From Curtobacterium sp. S6 (GTDB lineage: Bacteria; Actinomycetota; Actinomycetes; Actinomycetales; Micrococcaceae): a stretch of DNA of 64,000 nt. Position 1 is the stretch's first letter; every line of letters begins with the position of its first letter. The stretch lies in the NCBI RefSeq assembly GCF_000710345.2, contig NZ_JHEL01000015.1:186001-250000 (forward strand), written 5' to 3'. The notes under the pieces were generated by a model that was given only the letters and a program-made list of their open reading frames with translations, was not told where the DNA came from and did not search any database. Position numbers and translations under genes: made by a program. Shown here one piece after another: positions 6,911 through 27,467 of the stretch.

Positions 6911-7831
6911 ATGGAACACGCAAAAATGGTGAAAACCGAACTTACAAGACGCAGCGTGGCGCGAGGAGCGATGTGGTCGGTGCCCGTGGTCTGCGCTTCG
7001 AGTGCAGTCCCGGCCATAGCCGCTAGCCGGAGTGTTCAGCAGACGTTGCCGGGGGCCGGGTTGTACGTCACGGCCTCTAAGACGGACGGTGGCATCGGGT
7101 ACGGCCCAGACGACGGGACCACCAACACGGCCGACAGCTCTCTGAATTGGAATCCGGCGACGGGGAAACCGACTAATTGTCAGCGCTTCGCTCACGGGGA
7201 AGGGATTTTCACGCCCGGAAGCAATTCCACTAGCGGGGCCGATGGTTCGTACGGCTCGACCAGTGGTTTCTGGTGGGCGACCCCGCAGGACGATGCGGGC
7301 AACTTCATTAAAGGTGCCACCGCTCAGCTGAACGCTGGAGCGAAATTCGTGACGACCGTCAAGCTCACCGTTCCCGCCGGCGCGAACGCGTCGTGGACGT
7401 TGAGCAACGTGACCATAAACAGGAAGAAATGGGGTCAAGGCGGGCTCTCGGGTCCCCTCGTGCGCCTGCCCGGAGCGCGAAACGCTCTGGCATTCGGTGG
7501 CGTGAAGGGGACGTGGACCGCCTCGGCTCCCTCGGTTACTCCGGGCGCCAACGGGGACATGGTCTTTACCGGGACCATAACCTTCCAGACCACGGAGAAC
7601 GCGCTCGTTCGGGATAACGGGAAGCAACACTATGGCCAGGCTGTCATCATGCCGGGGACCGTATTCTTCCAGACTGCCTACGGGTGGAATCAGTTCACCC
7701 TGACCTCGACCGTGGAGAACGCCACCATTGTCACCACAGTGCCGGGAGGGTATACGAATCCCTATCCAGCGAGTAAACCGCTGGTTCTCACCAAAACGCT
7801 GACCACCACGACCTTCATCGTCCCATGTTGA
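6911..7831 (+). CDS. Exported protein with Tat-like signal, unknown function (copy 1)
   Basis: A 306-residue protein of unknown function. The N-terminus has twin arginines, a hydrophobic stretch and a cleavage-like site: TRRSVARG, then MWSVPVVCASS, then AVPAIAAS at about 30-40. The same layout occurs in two other proteins of this window (24513-25109 and 26203-26841). The mature part is rich in T, G, N and S, has predicted beta-strand character, lacks further membrane segments and ends in a cysteine. The start at 6911 is preferred because AAAGGA precedes it at normal spacing; in-frame ATGs at 6884 and 6899 lack such a site. The gene sits in a conserved his-trp block, suggesting later insertion. 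Surface exposure is inferred. Confidence 0.72.
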   Translation: MEHAKMVKTELTRRSVARGAMWSVPVVCASSAVPAIAASRSVQQTLPGAGLYVTASKTDGGIGYGPDDGTTNTADSSLNWNPATGKPTNCQRFAHGEGIFTPGSNSTSGADGSYGSTSGFWWATPQDDAGNFIKGATAQLNAGAKFVTTVKLTVPAGANASWTLSNVTINRKKWGQGGLSGPLVRLPGARNALAFGGVKGTWTASAPSVTPGANGDMVFTGTITFQTTENALVRDNGKQHYGQAVIMPGTVFFQTAYGWNQFTLTSTVENATIVTTVPGGYTNPYPASKPLVLTKTLTTTTFIVPC

Positions 7832-24265: not shown

Positions 24266-24350
24266 GCCCAAGTGGCGGAATTGGCAGACGCGCCGCACTC
24301 AAAATGCGGTTCTTCACGGAGTGTGGGTTCGAGTCCCACCTTGGGCACCA
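24266..24350 (+). tRNA. tRNA-Leu (anticodon CAA)
   Basis: The acceptor stem GCCCAAG pairs with CTTGGGC, followed by an encoded ACCA end. The D arm is GCGGAATTGGCAGACGC and the anticodon stem-loop is CCGCA CTCAAAA TGCGG, giving anticodon CAA for UUG codons. A long variable arm and the T arm GGGTTCGAGTCCC follow. The long variable arm fits class II tRNA-Leu. Its position after pyk is conserved in related actinobacteria. Confidence 0.96.
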
Positions 24351-24356
24351 GCCAGC

Positions 24357-24410
24357 AAAAAGGCGGCCTTCGAGCGCTACGTTGCGTAGCGCGCGAAGGC
24401 CGCCTTTTGT
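24357..24410 (+). terminator. Terminator after tRNA-Leu
   Basis: AAAAGGCGGCCTTCG pairs with CGAAGGCCGCCTTTT, and an inner CGCTACG/CGTAGCG stem extends the hairpin. The T-run makes it a classic intrinsic terminator. Confidence 0.85.
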
Positions 24411-24512
24411 CTACCCGTCTATCGTCGATCCGCGCCGATGCAAACGAAACGCGTCCAACTCACGTCCCGCCAATGTGGCATGAATGATCGAGAAGCGATC
24501 GCGCACCGCGGC

Positions 24513-25109
24513 TTAATAGATGCCATCCGGGCTGATGCCGGAGGTGTAGTCCTTGACGATCGACGAGTCCACGGGGACGGCGTTGGGTTCGACGATCGTG
24601 CCGCCGGTGACGCTCGTGATCACGATCTTATTCGTGATTCGCCCGCTGGTCGTTGCGGAGGCCCCGTCGTTAAAGGTGAGAAGAAAATTGGGGATGCTCG
24701 ACCCGCGCGCCAGTTTCGGGGTGACCGTTCCGTTCGGAATGGTCCATGTCAGCGTCGTGCGGTGGGTCGAGGCGTTGTACGCGCCCCGGGTGATCGACCC
24801 GTAACTGGTTACGACGCGAAAACTTCTCTCGTCGGTCGCCGCGCTCAGCAGTCCGACGATATCGATGGTGACCACCATGGGTGCCTGAAGAGTCATGGAG
24901 CTGACGGTCGACGACGTCGCCAAACCCAGGTTGACCGTCACGGTGTTGTACGCGCCGTTGGCCCCGCCGCCGCCGTCGAAGAGTACGCCCAAGTCCGGAT
25001 TGGTGGGCGACGCCGCATAGGCCGGTACGGCCGCCGTGGCGATAATGGTGGGCGCGGACCAGGCCGCTGCCGTGGCGAATTTTCTGCGACCGATTGACCG
25101 ATGTTCCAT
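24513..25109 (-). CDS. Exported protein with Tat-like signal, unknown function (copy 2)
   Basis: A 198-residue exported protein. The N-terminus IGRRKFATAAAWSAPTIIA followed by AVPAYAAS is a twin-arginine-like signal with an AxA cleavage site near residue 34. The mature part has no cysteine or membrane helix and looks beta-rich. It is a clear paralogue of the protein at 26203-26841: both share FDGG...ANG, ERS...ITRG.Y, T.TW.IP.GT, ITNKIV.TSV and a C-terminal DGIY. The ATG at 25109 is chosen because GGGAGAA precedes it and upstream starts lack a site. Function unknown. It lies between tRNA-Leu and a DHFR-fold gene on the same strand. Confidence 0.75.
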   Translation of the reverse strand: MEHRSIGRRKFATAAAWSAPTIIATAAVPAYAASPTNPDLGVLFDGGGGANGAYNTVTVNLGLATSSTVSSMTLQAPMVVTIDIVGLLSAATDERSFRVVTSYGSITRGAYNASTHRTTLTWTIPNGTVTPKLARGSSIPNFLLTFNDGASATTSGRITNKIVITSVTGGTIVEPNAVPVDSSIVKDYTSGISPDGIY

Positions 25110-25286
25110 GTGGTTCTCCCGAAGTTGACGTACGGGTCGGAACATTGCCGACGAGGAGCCGTCACTCGAATTCAGCGAGTGAGCGCTCACGCCCAGCCTA
25201 GCGTACTCGCGAGTATTTAATGCAAGAATTAAATTCTCAGGGGGATATCCCGTGGGTTCACCGGCGCCTTCCACCGAGCAGCGTGA

Positions 25287-25892
25287 TCATTTATTGGGCG
25301 ATTCTTCACCACAATTCGCGGGAAATGACCGCTCCGCCGGTCCAAAAACCAACACCGTGGTCCCCTTTGTATTGACCCGGTGATCGAGCAACGTCAGTGG
25401 CAGTGCGCCCCGGTTCAGATTCATGGAGTCGCTGAGCCGGCGTTCCGGTCCGGCGAAGACCGGATGGACGAAAAGGGTCAACCGGTCGAGGAGGCCGGCC
25501 TCCAGCAGCTGAGCGATGATGCTCAGGCTGCCTTGGATCGAGATATCCCGACCCTGGGTCCCCTTGAGGCCGCGCACGAAATCCATCAGGTCCCCGTCGA
25601 TCACGGAACAGTTTTCCCAGGTCACGTCGTGCTGTTTCAGGGTTCGGGAAGCGACGTGTTTGGCCACGGGGTTGATGAAGGACTTGAACGGGTCCTCGAC
25701 GTCCTCCCGGGTCCAGTGCGAGGCCCAGAAATCGTAGGTCTCGCGACCGAGCAGCACGTCGTCCACCGAGGAGAGCGTTTCGGTCATGACCTCACCGAGG
25801 ATCTCGTCGAAGGCGTCGCCCTGCCAGGAGGACGGGTTCTCGACGGCGCCGTCGAGCGTTGTGAAGAGGTTGGCGGTGACGCGTCGCGACAT
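25287..25892 (-). CDS. Dihydrofolate-reductase-fold / RibD C-terminal-like reductase
   Basis: A 201-residue protein of the RibD C-terminal/dihydrofolate reductase superfamily (YyaP/YwjB-like). Visible features are the N-terminal TANLFTTLDGAVENP, VDDVLLGRETYDFWASHW (nucleotide-binding helix), the glycine turn of IQGSLSIIAQLLEAGLLDRLTLFVHPV, and a C-terminal TTVLVFGPAE strand. Such proteins are predicted NADPH-dependent reductases of unknown substrate; many sit in mobile or accessory positions. The ATG at 25892 follows GAGGAA. It lies between two exported paralogues, on the strand of copy 2. Confidence 0.8.
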   Translation of the reverse strand: MSRRVTANLFTTLDGAVENPSSWQGDAFDEILGEVMTETLSSVDDVLLGRETYDFWASHWTREDVEDPFKSFINPVAKHVASRTLKQHDVTWENCSVIDGDLMDFVRGLKGTQGRDISIQGSLSIIAQLLEAGLLDRLTLFVHPVFAGPERRLSDSMNLNRGALPLTLLDHRVNTKGTTVLVFGPAERSFPANCGEESPNK

Positions 25893-26202
25893 GGGTGGTT
25901 CCTCATTTCCTCGAGTGTGCACTATGCGCCGGGCGGCGGCGCACGATTGCCCCGATCGTACCGTCTGGCCGCCTTCGGTAATTCCGCCGAACGGGAAAGT
26001 AGTGCGTTGCCACCCGCCGGAAATGGACGGGCGTCACATACGTGAGTTTTAACCAAAATCGCGAAAGAATCGATATTCTCTGAGTGCCACCTGGCGTATC
26101 GAGGGAAAAGGCGAATGGGGATCGCTGCATTTCCGGGGGTAGTGCGCCGCCAATTTCCGGGCCCTTTGGAGGGGCGTTTCCGGTCTATGCTTCAGGAGAA
26201 TC

Positions 26203-26841
26203 ATGGTGCTCGAGGGCGACCTCACTTATCCCCTACACAAGGCTTCGTCGAACCACGACGCGGTCCGGGTCACGCGGCGTCGGCTGGGAAAAGCCACAAT
26301 GTGGACCCTTCCGACGATCGTGGCCGCCGGCGCCGTGCCGGCCTACGCCGCCACCCCGGACAGTCCCACCTTCGGTTTCCAATTCGACGGCGGGACCTTT
26401 GCTAACGGCATACCCAAGCTTGTGTTCCTCAATTTTGGGGTCGCACCCGGGGCGGCCGCGCCTTATACGTCGGCCTCCACCATCACGGTGACCTTCGACG
26501 TGGTGGGCCTCAACATGACCGATGGGGCCCCGGAGAGATCCATGACCATCACGTCGTCGCACGGCGATATCACGCGGGGCTCCTATGACTCCGCGACCCG
26601 GACCACCACGTTCACCTGGGCGATCCCGGCGGGCACCAACTTCCCGACGGTCAGCACGTCGCTGGGCGTCCCGGACGTCTCCCTCGCCTTCGGCGACGGG
26701 TTTTCGTTCCGAGGACGGGTCACCAACAAGATCGTGGTCACCTCCGTCTCCGGGGCGATCGTCTCGTCGCCGGGCCCGTTGCCGCTGGACTCCACGATCG
26801 CCAAGGATCTCTCCGGGCCGAGCGGGGACGGGATCTACTGA
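26203..26841 (+). CDS. Exported protein with Tat-like signal, unknown function (copy 3)
   Basis: A 212-residue exported protein. The signal has an unusually long n-region of about 24 residues, then TRRRLGKATMWTLPTIVA and AVPAYAAT, with predicted cleavage near residue 50. The mature part aligns over its full length with the product of 24513-25109 (FDGG...ANG, ERS...DITRGSY, TFTWAIPAGT, VTNKIVVTSV, final DGIY) and carries no known domain. The AGGAGA ribosome-binding site fits the ATG at 26203. It is transcribed away from copy 2, so the two paralogues flank the DHFR-fold gene as a divergent pair. Function unknown. Confidence 0.75.
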   Translation: MVLEGDLTYPLHKASSNHDAVRVTRRRLGKATMWTLPTIVAAGAVPAYAATPDSPTFGFQFDGGTFANGIPKLVFLNFGVAPGAAAPYTSASTITVTFDVVGLNMTDGAPERSMTITSSHGDITRGSYDSATRTTTFTWAIPAGTNFPTVSTSLGVPDVSLAFGDGFSFRGRVTNKIVVTSVSGAIVSSPGPLPLDSTIAKDLSGPSGDGIY

Positions 26842-27002
26842 CGGTCCCACTCCACGGTGGAGGGGAACGGAGGGAATCAGCTCCTGGCTGATCATCGGGA
26901 AGACCCTGGGATTCGTGGGGTGCACGTCACTAAGGTTGGGTGGGACAGGGTTTCCCCGGTGCGACCGGGGGAGAACCACCGCAGTCAAAGTCAGGAGGAC
27001 GC

Positions 27003-27467
27003 ATGACTGATACAACCTCGATTACGGTCAGCCGCTCCATCGATGCTCCCGCCAAGGCGATTTTTGATCTCCTGAGCAATCCGGAACGCCACCACGAATT
27101 CGACGGCTCGGGTTTTGTCGTCTCGGACGACCGCACCGATCGCATCCAGAAGTCCGGCGTGAAGTTCACCATGAACATGACCGGCGCACACATGGGCGGC
27201 GACTACAAGACCGACAACTACGTCACCGGCTACGACGAGAACAAGCTGATCGCGTGGAAGACCGCGCCGGCCGGCGAGGAGCCTCCCGGATGGGAATGGA
27301 CCTGGGCCCTCGAGTCCACGGGCTCCGATTCGACCGACGTGACGCTGACCTACGACTGGTCCGCGATGGACCCGCAGGCGGCCGCCGACCTGGGCATGCC
27401 CCTGGTCAAGGAAGATCAGCTCGAACAGTCTCTCGAACTGCTCGCGAACGCCGTCTCGGGAGCTTAA
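27003..27467 (+). CDS. SRPBCC-fold protein (START/polyketide cyclase-like)
   Basis: A 154-residue protein with the helix-grip fold: an N-terminal strand TSITVSRSIDAPAKAIFDLLSNPERHHEFDGSG, the central basket strands, and a long C-terminal helix (QLEQSLELLANAVSG). Family members bind hydrophobic ligands; nothing in the sequence tells which. The ATG at 27003 is set by a TCAGGAGG site. The gene stands alone, with a hairpin terminator 20 nt downstream. Confidence 0.8.
   Translation: MTDTTSITVSRSIDAPAKAIFDLLSNPERHHEFDGSGFVVSDDRTDRIQKSGVKFTMNMTGAHMGGDYKTDNYVTGYDENKLIAWKTAPAGEEPPGWEWTWALESTGSDSTDVTLTYDWSAMDPQAAADLGMPLVKEDQLEQSLELLANAVSGA

Follow-up and report, generated by a model that had tools for sequence, protein, structure and literature searches.

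The window analysed here, a stretch of 64,000 nucleotides from contig NZ_JHEL01000015.1 of Curtobacterium sp. S6, contains two related genes, copy 1 and copy 2, whose products are predicted to be exported by the twin-arginine translocation (Tat) pathway. They lie behind a tRNA-Leu gene, on either side of a reductase-like gene. We compared the locus with 35 genomes of its genus (the genus containing Rothia amarae, in which this genome is G000 and its sister genome G012) and with further samples of 295 genomes of the taxonomic family, 396 of the order and 394 of the class. The names pyk, pdtaR, polA, rarA, rpsD, ksgA and similar ones are those that we presume from the look of the sequences. The elements of the locus are listed below (G010 is another of the genomes compared).

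24513..25109, minus strand: copy 1, predicted exported beta-sandwich protein of 198 amino acids with C-terminal DGIY (from sequence, paralogue alignment, tree and fold model)
25011..25109, minus strand: predicted Tat-type signal of copy 1, RRKFATAAAWSAPTIIATAAVPAYAA, with W at RR+9 and P at RR+12
24516..24527, minus strand: codons for the C-terminal DGIY of copy 1
26203..26841, plus strand: copy 2, predicted exported beta-sandwich protein of 212 amino acids with C-terminal DGIY (from sequence and paralogue alignment)
26203..26352, plus strand: predicted N-terminal region and Tat-type signal of copy 2, RRRLGKATMWTLPTIVAAGAVPAYAA
26827..26838, plus strand: codons for the C-terminal DGIY of copy 2
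25287..25892, minus strand: RibD_C (reductase-fold) gene, taken as a neighbour outside the system (PF01872; alone here in the sister genome)
24266..24350, plus strand: tRNA-Leu(CAA), whose 3' end is a prophage attachment site in G010
24372..25358: block that includes copy 1; the DNA alignment shows nothing corresponding in G012, where about 80 bp lie instead
25894..26873: block that includes copy 2; the DNA alignment shows nothing corresponding in G012, where about 147 bp lie instead

Both open reading frames (ORFs) that a sequence-only reading of this DNA had placed here were confirmed. As that reading had claimed, they align from the signal to DGIY, with 87 identities over 192 positions from RR onwards (45%, E = 3e-44), far beyond chance, and they have the motifs FDGG, ERS, ITRG.Y, TW.IP, TNKIV and DGIY in common. 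Its description of a pair running in opposite directions around a reductase-like gene was also correct: the intervening gene belongs to RibD_C (PF01872, 4.7e-18), shares its strand with copy 1 and diverges from copy 2. Downstream of the pair are an SRPBCC gene (27003-27467) and then what we take to be pdtaR followed by polA.

Profile searches of Pfam, NCBIfam, PHROGs and PADLOC gave no curated family for copy 1 or copy 2, in agreement with the sequence-only reading, which had recognised none. The weak matches obtained were all below cut-off: DUF7015 (far below its own), Big_8 (Pfam; E 0.011 in one of 13 family members), DUF1659, PKD_6 and DUF6426. A sequence search of the PDB with the family gave one chance match (E 1.5) and nothing significant, and a search of BFVD gave no match at E <= 0.001. 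A third copy is present in this genome on contig C10. Full-length short-form relatives were recovered from three of the 35 genus genomes (G000, G012 and G003) and divergent ones from G012 and G019; outside the genus they occur in Kocuria: in a metagenome-assembled genome (MAG), in K. palustris as a tandem pair, in G198 and, as a fragment, in G148. Matches were found in 51 of the 295 genomes of the taxonomic family, mostly over the signal alone. A profile built from 13 mature domains matched 13 of the 396 genomes of the order at E 1e-5, spread over five families. Among these order relatives (L184, L185 and L190 being left out of the reading of signals and C-termini), the six whose frame is open and whose ends can be read (L177, L178, L179, L181, L182 and L188) have the same signal and end in [DN]GI[YW], L180 ends in DGIY with no signal seen, and L183/L191, L186 and L187 are broken frames. 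The family profile matched six genomes of the class sample at E 1e-10. The two of them outside the order, G479 and G589, each score 45 bits, over positions 1-96 and 7-48 of the profile, and their signals alone score 48 and 51 bits; as the matches score no more than the signals, they do not point to a relative of the mature domain outside Micrococcales. Among the genomes sampled, the mature domain was thus found in Micrococcales alone, which together with the Tat-type signal and an encoded TatC agrees with the earlier description of the proteins as lineage-specific and secreted.

The family has three size classes of about 190, 260 and 375 residues. In profile comparisons, the 260-residue form aligned with the short form over 153 columns and with the 375-residue form in its N-terminal 103 columns, and the alignment of the short with the 375-residue form was confined to the signal. 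Since the 260-residue form bridges the other two, we do not claim independent convergence of their C-termini. Over 19 aligned members, the invariant columns (numbered as in copy 1) are R8, R9, W17, P20, P29, A30 and A32 in the signal, followed by G52, R95, G104, G196 and I197; the commonest residue reaches a mean frequency of 0.65 across the signal and 0.47 across the body. Ratios of nonsynonymous to synonymous substitution rates (dN/dS) were estimated at 0.12 to 0.66 in pairs with unsaturated synonymous sites, a range that fits functional proteins. Several copies are broken, one by a stop in the signal (L034) and others by frame breaks (L183/L191, L186, L187), which fits a gene that is often gained and lost; assembly errors are the alternative.

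The signal follows the pattern RR-x7-W-x2-P...PAYAAS (consensus SRRxLAKGAAW...PAYAAS) and ends in PAYAAS or PAYAAT in copies 1 and 2, without a lipobox cysteine. Tat substrates have a motif of the type S/T-R-R-x-phi-x-K, and the RR motif, a hydrophobic stretch and an A-x-A site are all present here. Because the arginine pair is invariant and this genome has a TatC gene, we consider it very probable that the family is an unnamed exported one whose domain is exported folded, through Tat. The signal is much more widespread than the pair. In this genome, 14 loci matched the signal profile at 1e-4, each with a frame that contains RR-x7-W-x2-P, a count that may be a lower bound with 20 of 44 candidates scored, and the mature parts behind these signals fell into 11 groups (blastp, E 0.01): the present family with three members, one pair and nine singletons. 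The tryptophan that the sequence-only reading had singled out is thus indeed conserved in both signals, but it is not a mark of the pair.

We then collected 231 loci, mostly chosen through profile matches, and found 100 distinct signal-bearing ORFs with mature parts in 48 clusters at E 1e-4. All 100 have RR and 98 have W at RR+9; the script permitted KR, RK or KK and W at positions 6 to 13, and the choice of loci biases the spacing, which is not a free estimate. A hydrophobicity filter dropped some signal genes, including copy 2 itself and the L112 gene. As a small control, we examined the eight TIGR01409 matches of this genome, which lie at different places from the 14 W-signal matches: the four with a readable signal all lacked W at +9, and the signals of the other four were not readable. 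Among 43 W-signal proteins, there was no TIGR01409 or PF10518 match at E 0.01 and no credible Pfam or NCBIfam match. In the class sample, the signal was detected at 1e-4 in 21 of 394 genomes, with up to 14 per genome. A literature search on words for the motif, with limited coverage of subscription journals, returned nothing relevant. The comparison brings out a wider class of predicted exported actinobacterial proteins that share one stereotyped Tat-type signal missed by current family models. The window itself holds a third W-signal gene at 6926-7831 on the plus strand (signal RRSVARGAMWSVPVVCASSAVPAIAAS), with a mature part unrelated to the pair. In genomes of another order of the class, four W-signal genes cluster within a few kb at L160 (G395:C1) and three at L161 (G381:C2), and their mature parts have no mutual match at E 1e-4.

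The end [DN]G[IV][YWF] distinguishes the family from the other carriers of the signal. It closes 20 of the 24 ORFs of the family cluster, the remaining four being cut by locus ends (two) or broken in frame (two), and none of the 76 other signal-bearing ORFs. Conservation of this kind suggests that the C-terminus is probably a docking element.

The sequence-only reading had taken the run pyk-tRNA-Leu-pdtaR to be usually uninterrupted. This was not confirmed: among 14 other genus genomes, the three lie within about 0.2 kb of each other in G006 alone, and the remaining genomes have an SRPBCC gene, a gap of at least about 0.9 kb, or no tRNA or pdtaR within the stretch compared. Between tRNA-Leu and the SRPBCC gene, we found RibD_C alone in G012 and nothing in G011; in G009 the interval presumably holds a transporter and a regulator. 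In G024, G025 and G010, it is occupied by a W-signal gene of another cargo type, 38-90% identical among the three, without a match to the family of copies 1 and 2 at E 0.01, and with a homologue in this genome (40-42%) that lies 405 bp behind tRNA-Arg. G010 has in addition a 41.6-kb prophage at tRNA-Leu(CAA) (G010:C43:17215-58935; L113, L246-L248), with the integrase directly behind the tRNA (PHROG, 8e-82) and, 41.6 kb away, a direct repeat of the final 38 bp of the tRNA. The tRNA-Leu interval is an insertion hotspot. More generally, four of the 14 signal genes of this genome lie within 410 bp of a tRNA gene, all on its 3' side (Leu, Met, Pro, Arg), which corresponds to P of about 1e-4 at a chance of 2% per gene and 6e-4 at 3%, both chances being assumed from typical tRNA numbers. 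In a scan of 22 loci, the four tRNA-linked ones all came from this genome or G012; the link was absent from the 12 loci of other species and is thus clade-specific. One of the G012 copies (L034) lies behind tRNA-Asn, in the same gene neighbourhood that holds a copy behind tRNA-Met in this genome.

A scan of IMG/VR with an alignment of five members recovered one relative, in the provirus UViG_2821822601_000001 (40,944 bp). The provirus gene is intact and ends in DGIY; it follows minor-tail genes, an endolysin gene (PHROG_998, 1.3e-52) and a putative holin gene, the latter without family match and named from its position. The next gene, at the contig end, is a DNA-binding ORF (PHROG_597, 4e-22; PHROG_66, excisionase, 4e-4). 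This position, between the lysis genes and such a DNA-binding gene, is one where cargo genes are usually met. On our reading of the sequence, a terminator-like hairpin stands on either side of the family gene, so that this one homologue sits between functional modules with its own transcription unit, as a moron does. With the provirus copy, the tRNA-Asn copy of G012 shares 80% identity and copy 1 shares 63%, and in our wider tree copy 1 grouped with these two (87/89; inner pair 96/92). The late genes of the provirus resemble those of the G010 prophage, with 70-78% DNA identity in parts of the endolysin and holin genes, and the prophage has a different gene where the provirus has the family gene. 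Among 75 phage loci found through the endolysin, a W-signal gene was present in this provirus alone, within the stretches examined. Scans of viral contigs with the 375-residue family and with the cargo type of the tRNA-Leu interval gave none, and the latter was not found in plasmids either. We consider phage carriage of the copy-1 lineage rather probable.

Genes with an Ltp domain accompany the family or its signal at two tRNA-linked sites. One (PF07553, 1.3e-41; L034:571-1251) is the convergent neighbour, at 240 bp, of the tRNA-Asn copy of G012, and the other (1.1e-48; L111:3497-4333) lies in the tRNA-Leu interval of G024. These genes of Rothia relatives are candidates for superinfection exclusion. 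The prototype of the surface lipoproteins that act in superinfection exclusion is reported to be Ltp, from phage TP-J34 (PMC3952083). Copies 1 and 2 themselves gave no Ltp match.

A different site shows how the cargo behind the signal changes. At seven Rothia loci, chosen for holding family members, a member of the 260- or 375-residue type lies between rarA and rpsD. In this genome (L174:5772-6365 / G000:C12:273762) and in G012, G024, G025 and G010, a W-signal gene is likewise present upstream of rpsD, with mature parts that align within this clade (24-57% identity to that of this genome) and not with the family. Signal and place were thus kept and the cargo was changed. In nine other genomes, no signal gene was seen in the 1.5 kb upstream of rpsD; one may lie further off, as in G027, where the 375-residue type starts about 2.4 kb upstream.

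An AlphaFold2 model of copy 1 built with 13 mature sequences (predicted local distance difference test, pLDDT, 84.9; predicted template modelling score, pTM, 0.82) has eleven strands, no helix of four residues or more, and low confidence over about the last 15 residues. An earlier model from five sequences was poor (pLDDT 53) and its structural matches were not used. Foldseek and VIA-align gave as neighbours cohesins, collagen-binding adhesin domains, integrin domains, mu-homology domains and a CLIPPER adhesin domain, with Z up to 7.8 in tied rows, over about 105-129 residues among the matches listed; according to the tool, a Z below 8 may reflect just a common arrangement. Copy 1 is thus predicted to be a single immunoglobulin (Ig)-like beta-sandwich without assignable relative.

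The explanation that we prefer, and to which we give about even credence, is that the two copies encode Tat-exported proteins, that their genes are cargo (morons) which temperate phages brought to integration sites at tRNA genes, and that the proteins act at the cell surface, perhaps in superinfection exclusion. Separately acquired single-domain Ig-like proteins would fold in the cytoplasm, leave through Tat by means of the RR-x7-W-x2-P...PAYAAS signal and be cut after A-x-A. No membrane or cell-wall anchor was seen by eye, no dedicated anchor search having been made; the conserved tail of low confidence, probably flexible, presumably docks the protein to a partner through [DN]GI[YWF]-COOH. 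The genes, including those of the window, would have travelled as cargo of temperate phages integrating at tRNA 3' ends and persisted as solitary genes. The outcome would be lysogenic conversion of the surface, most plausibly an interference with adsorption or injection by competing phages. Our best single guess of function, a tentative one that we place ahead of a host-adaptive binding protein, is that the secreted domain alters the surface to the advantage of a resident phage, perhaps by keeping other phages out. The sequences themselves show the family, its signal, the predicted beta-sandwich, the conserved C-terminus, the intact copy behind the lysis genes of a provirus, the use of the tRNA-Leu site by a prophage in a relative and the two blocks that the sister genome lacks; Tat use, cleavage, docking, a role at the surface and a phage origin of the window copies are inferred from them.

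Several observations weigh against this explanation. A single provirus with the family gene was found, and a search of GenBank phages and PLSDB plasmids with copy 1 gave no match. In the window, no phage genes were seen beside the pair and no att repeat within three mismatches is left; no phage was seen either at the seven Rothia long-form loci, which occupy a housekeeping site. The deep split of the wider tree is weak (35/25), as is the grouping of copy 2, which is 49% identical to the phage copy. The PADLOC search returned nothing for the pair. Superinfection exclusion is proposed from gene company and position, and export, processing and surface location are predictions.

The most serious competitor, possible and yet rather unlikely in our view, is a secreted host adhesin or ligand-binding module, for carbohydrate or protein, that is host-adaptive and that phages carry incidentally. 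It agrees with the structural neighbours (cohesins and collagen-binding adhesin, integrin and CLIPPER adhesin domains), with the housekeeping site shared by the seven Rothia loci and with the dN/dS values; all Z values are however below 8, no anchor was seen by eye, and the position in the phage and the tRNA sites would be left unexplained. A secreted antagonist between strains, bacteriocin-like or an effector, would account for the phage-cargo position, and cargo turnover at shared sites and several broken copies fit an arms race. We nevertheless regard it as improbable: no toxin family was matched, and across the compared loci no gene, for example one for immunity, kept recurring beside the short form, the recurrent neighbours belonging to one long-form site.

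The origin of the pair can be addressed by comparison with G012, which has in the same order pyk, tRNA-Leu, an intact RibD_C gene (75-78% identical), SRPBCC and pdtaR, with no family gene on either side of the reductase; in the DNA alignment, positions 24372-25358 and 25894-26873 of the window are unmatched. The sequence-only reading had seen in the pair a lineage-specific module together with the reductase. Apart from their adjacency in one genome, there is little to recommend this proposal, to which we give almost no credence and which we rejected: the reductase stands alone at the same site in G012, 10 other distinct family loci yielded no RibD_C homologue, and only four of the 35 genus genomes match the reductase at E 1e-10. 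The reductase looks like a bystander. The distance of less than 1.1 kb between the copies could suggest a tandem duplication at the site followed by an inversion. This is very unlikely and was disfavoured, as the identity of copy 1 to copy 2 (43-44%) is exceeded by its identity to the C10 copy (61%), the G012 copies (58 and 62%) and the phage copy (63%), with which copy 1 also groups in trees. In a first tree, copy 2 grouped with R. amarae, G198 and the Kocuria MAG (85/95), a placement to be read with the weak deep split of the wider tree in mind. The trees do not place the paralogues as sisters, so that each was probably gained on its own; two separate gains are also the economical reading of the comparison with G012, two losses in G012 being less simple. 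Around the inserts of the window, we found no repeats resembling an insertion footprint, and a promoter and terminator scan did not rise above shuffles. For the second G012 copy (L038), this genome offered no clean empty site, the two flanks being about 7 kb apart here, and the comparison was not used.

The family and its signal can be compared with three known systems. Like the Ltp-type superinfection-exclusion lipoproteins (PF07553; TP-J34), the family proteins are predicted to be exported and would each be the product of a single temperate-phage gene, and Ltp genes adjoin a family copy or share the tRNA-Leu interval. In contrast to Ltp, copies 1 and 2 have a Tat-type signal, without a lipoprotein signal or Ltp domain, and an exclusion activity is only proposed here. 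Like the YSIRK/G-S proteins of Gram-positive cocci, the 100 W-signal carriers have one stereotyped signal on many proteins (48 unrelated mature clusters). YSIRK signals, according to published work, direct Sec precursors to the septum; the W signal differs in being Tat-type. The family domain also resembles the Ig-like domains of cohesin, MSCRAMM and CLIPPER type in strand arrangement (Z up to 7.8), and differs from them in standing alone, in its DGIY-type end and in having no significant sequence similarity to the PDB, the Z values being within the range of unrelated matches.

More speculatively, and as a long shot, the W-x-x-P signal could serve specifically for sorting, as YSIRK does but for Tat, and mark out a large repertoire of exported proteins that phages shuffle among actinomycetes. 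Cargo domains would be swapped behind a constant signal at recurrent chromosomal sites, [DN]GI[YWF] would be a second tag of one branch, for docking at the C-terminus, and the whole would be a surface system in phage-phage or phage-host conflict. An unnamed exported family gains a likely place, as temperate-phage cargo at tRNA sites, and an assayable hypothesis, and we find phage carriage and the wider W-signal class of more interest than a pair with a reductase.

Two further genes were encountered near the sites described above. Near the G012 family copy behind tRNA-Asn, L039:3732-4937 encodes a GmrSD_C endonuclease domain and an Excalibur domain, and the protein encoded by L112:1100-2314, in the tRNA-Leu interval of G025, looks similar to it.

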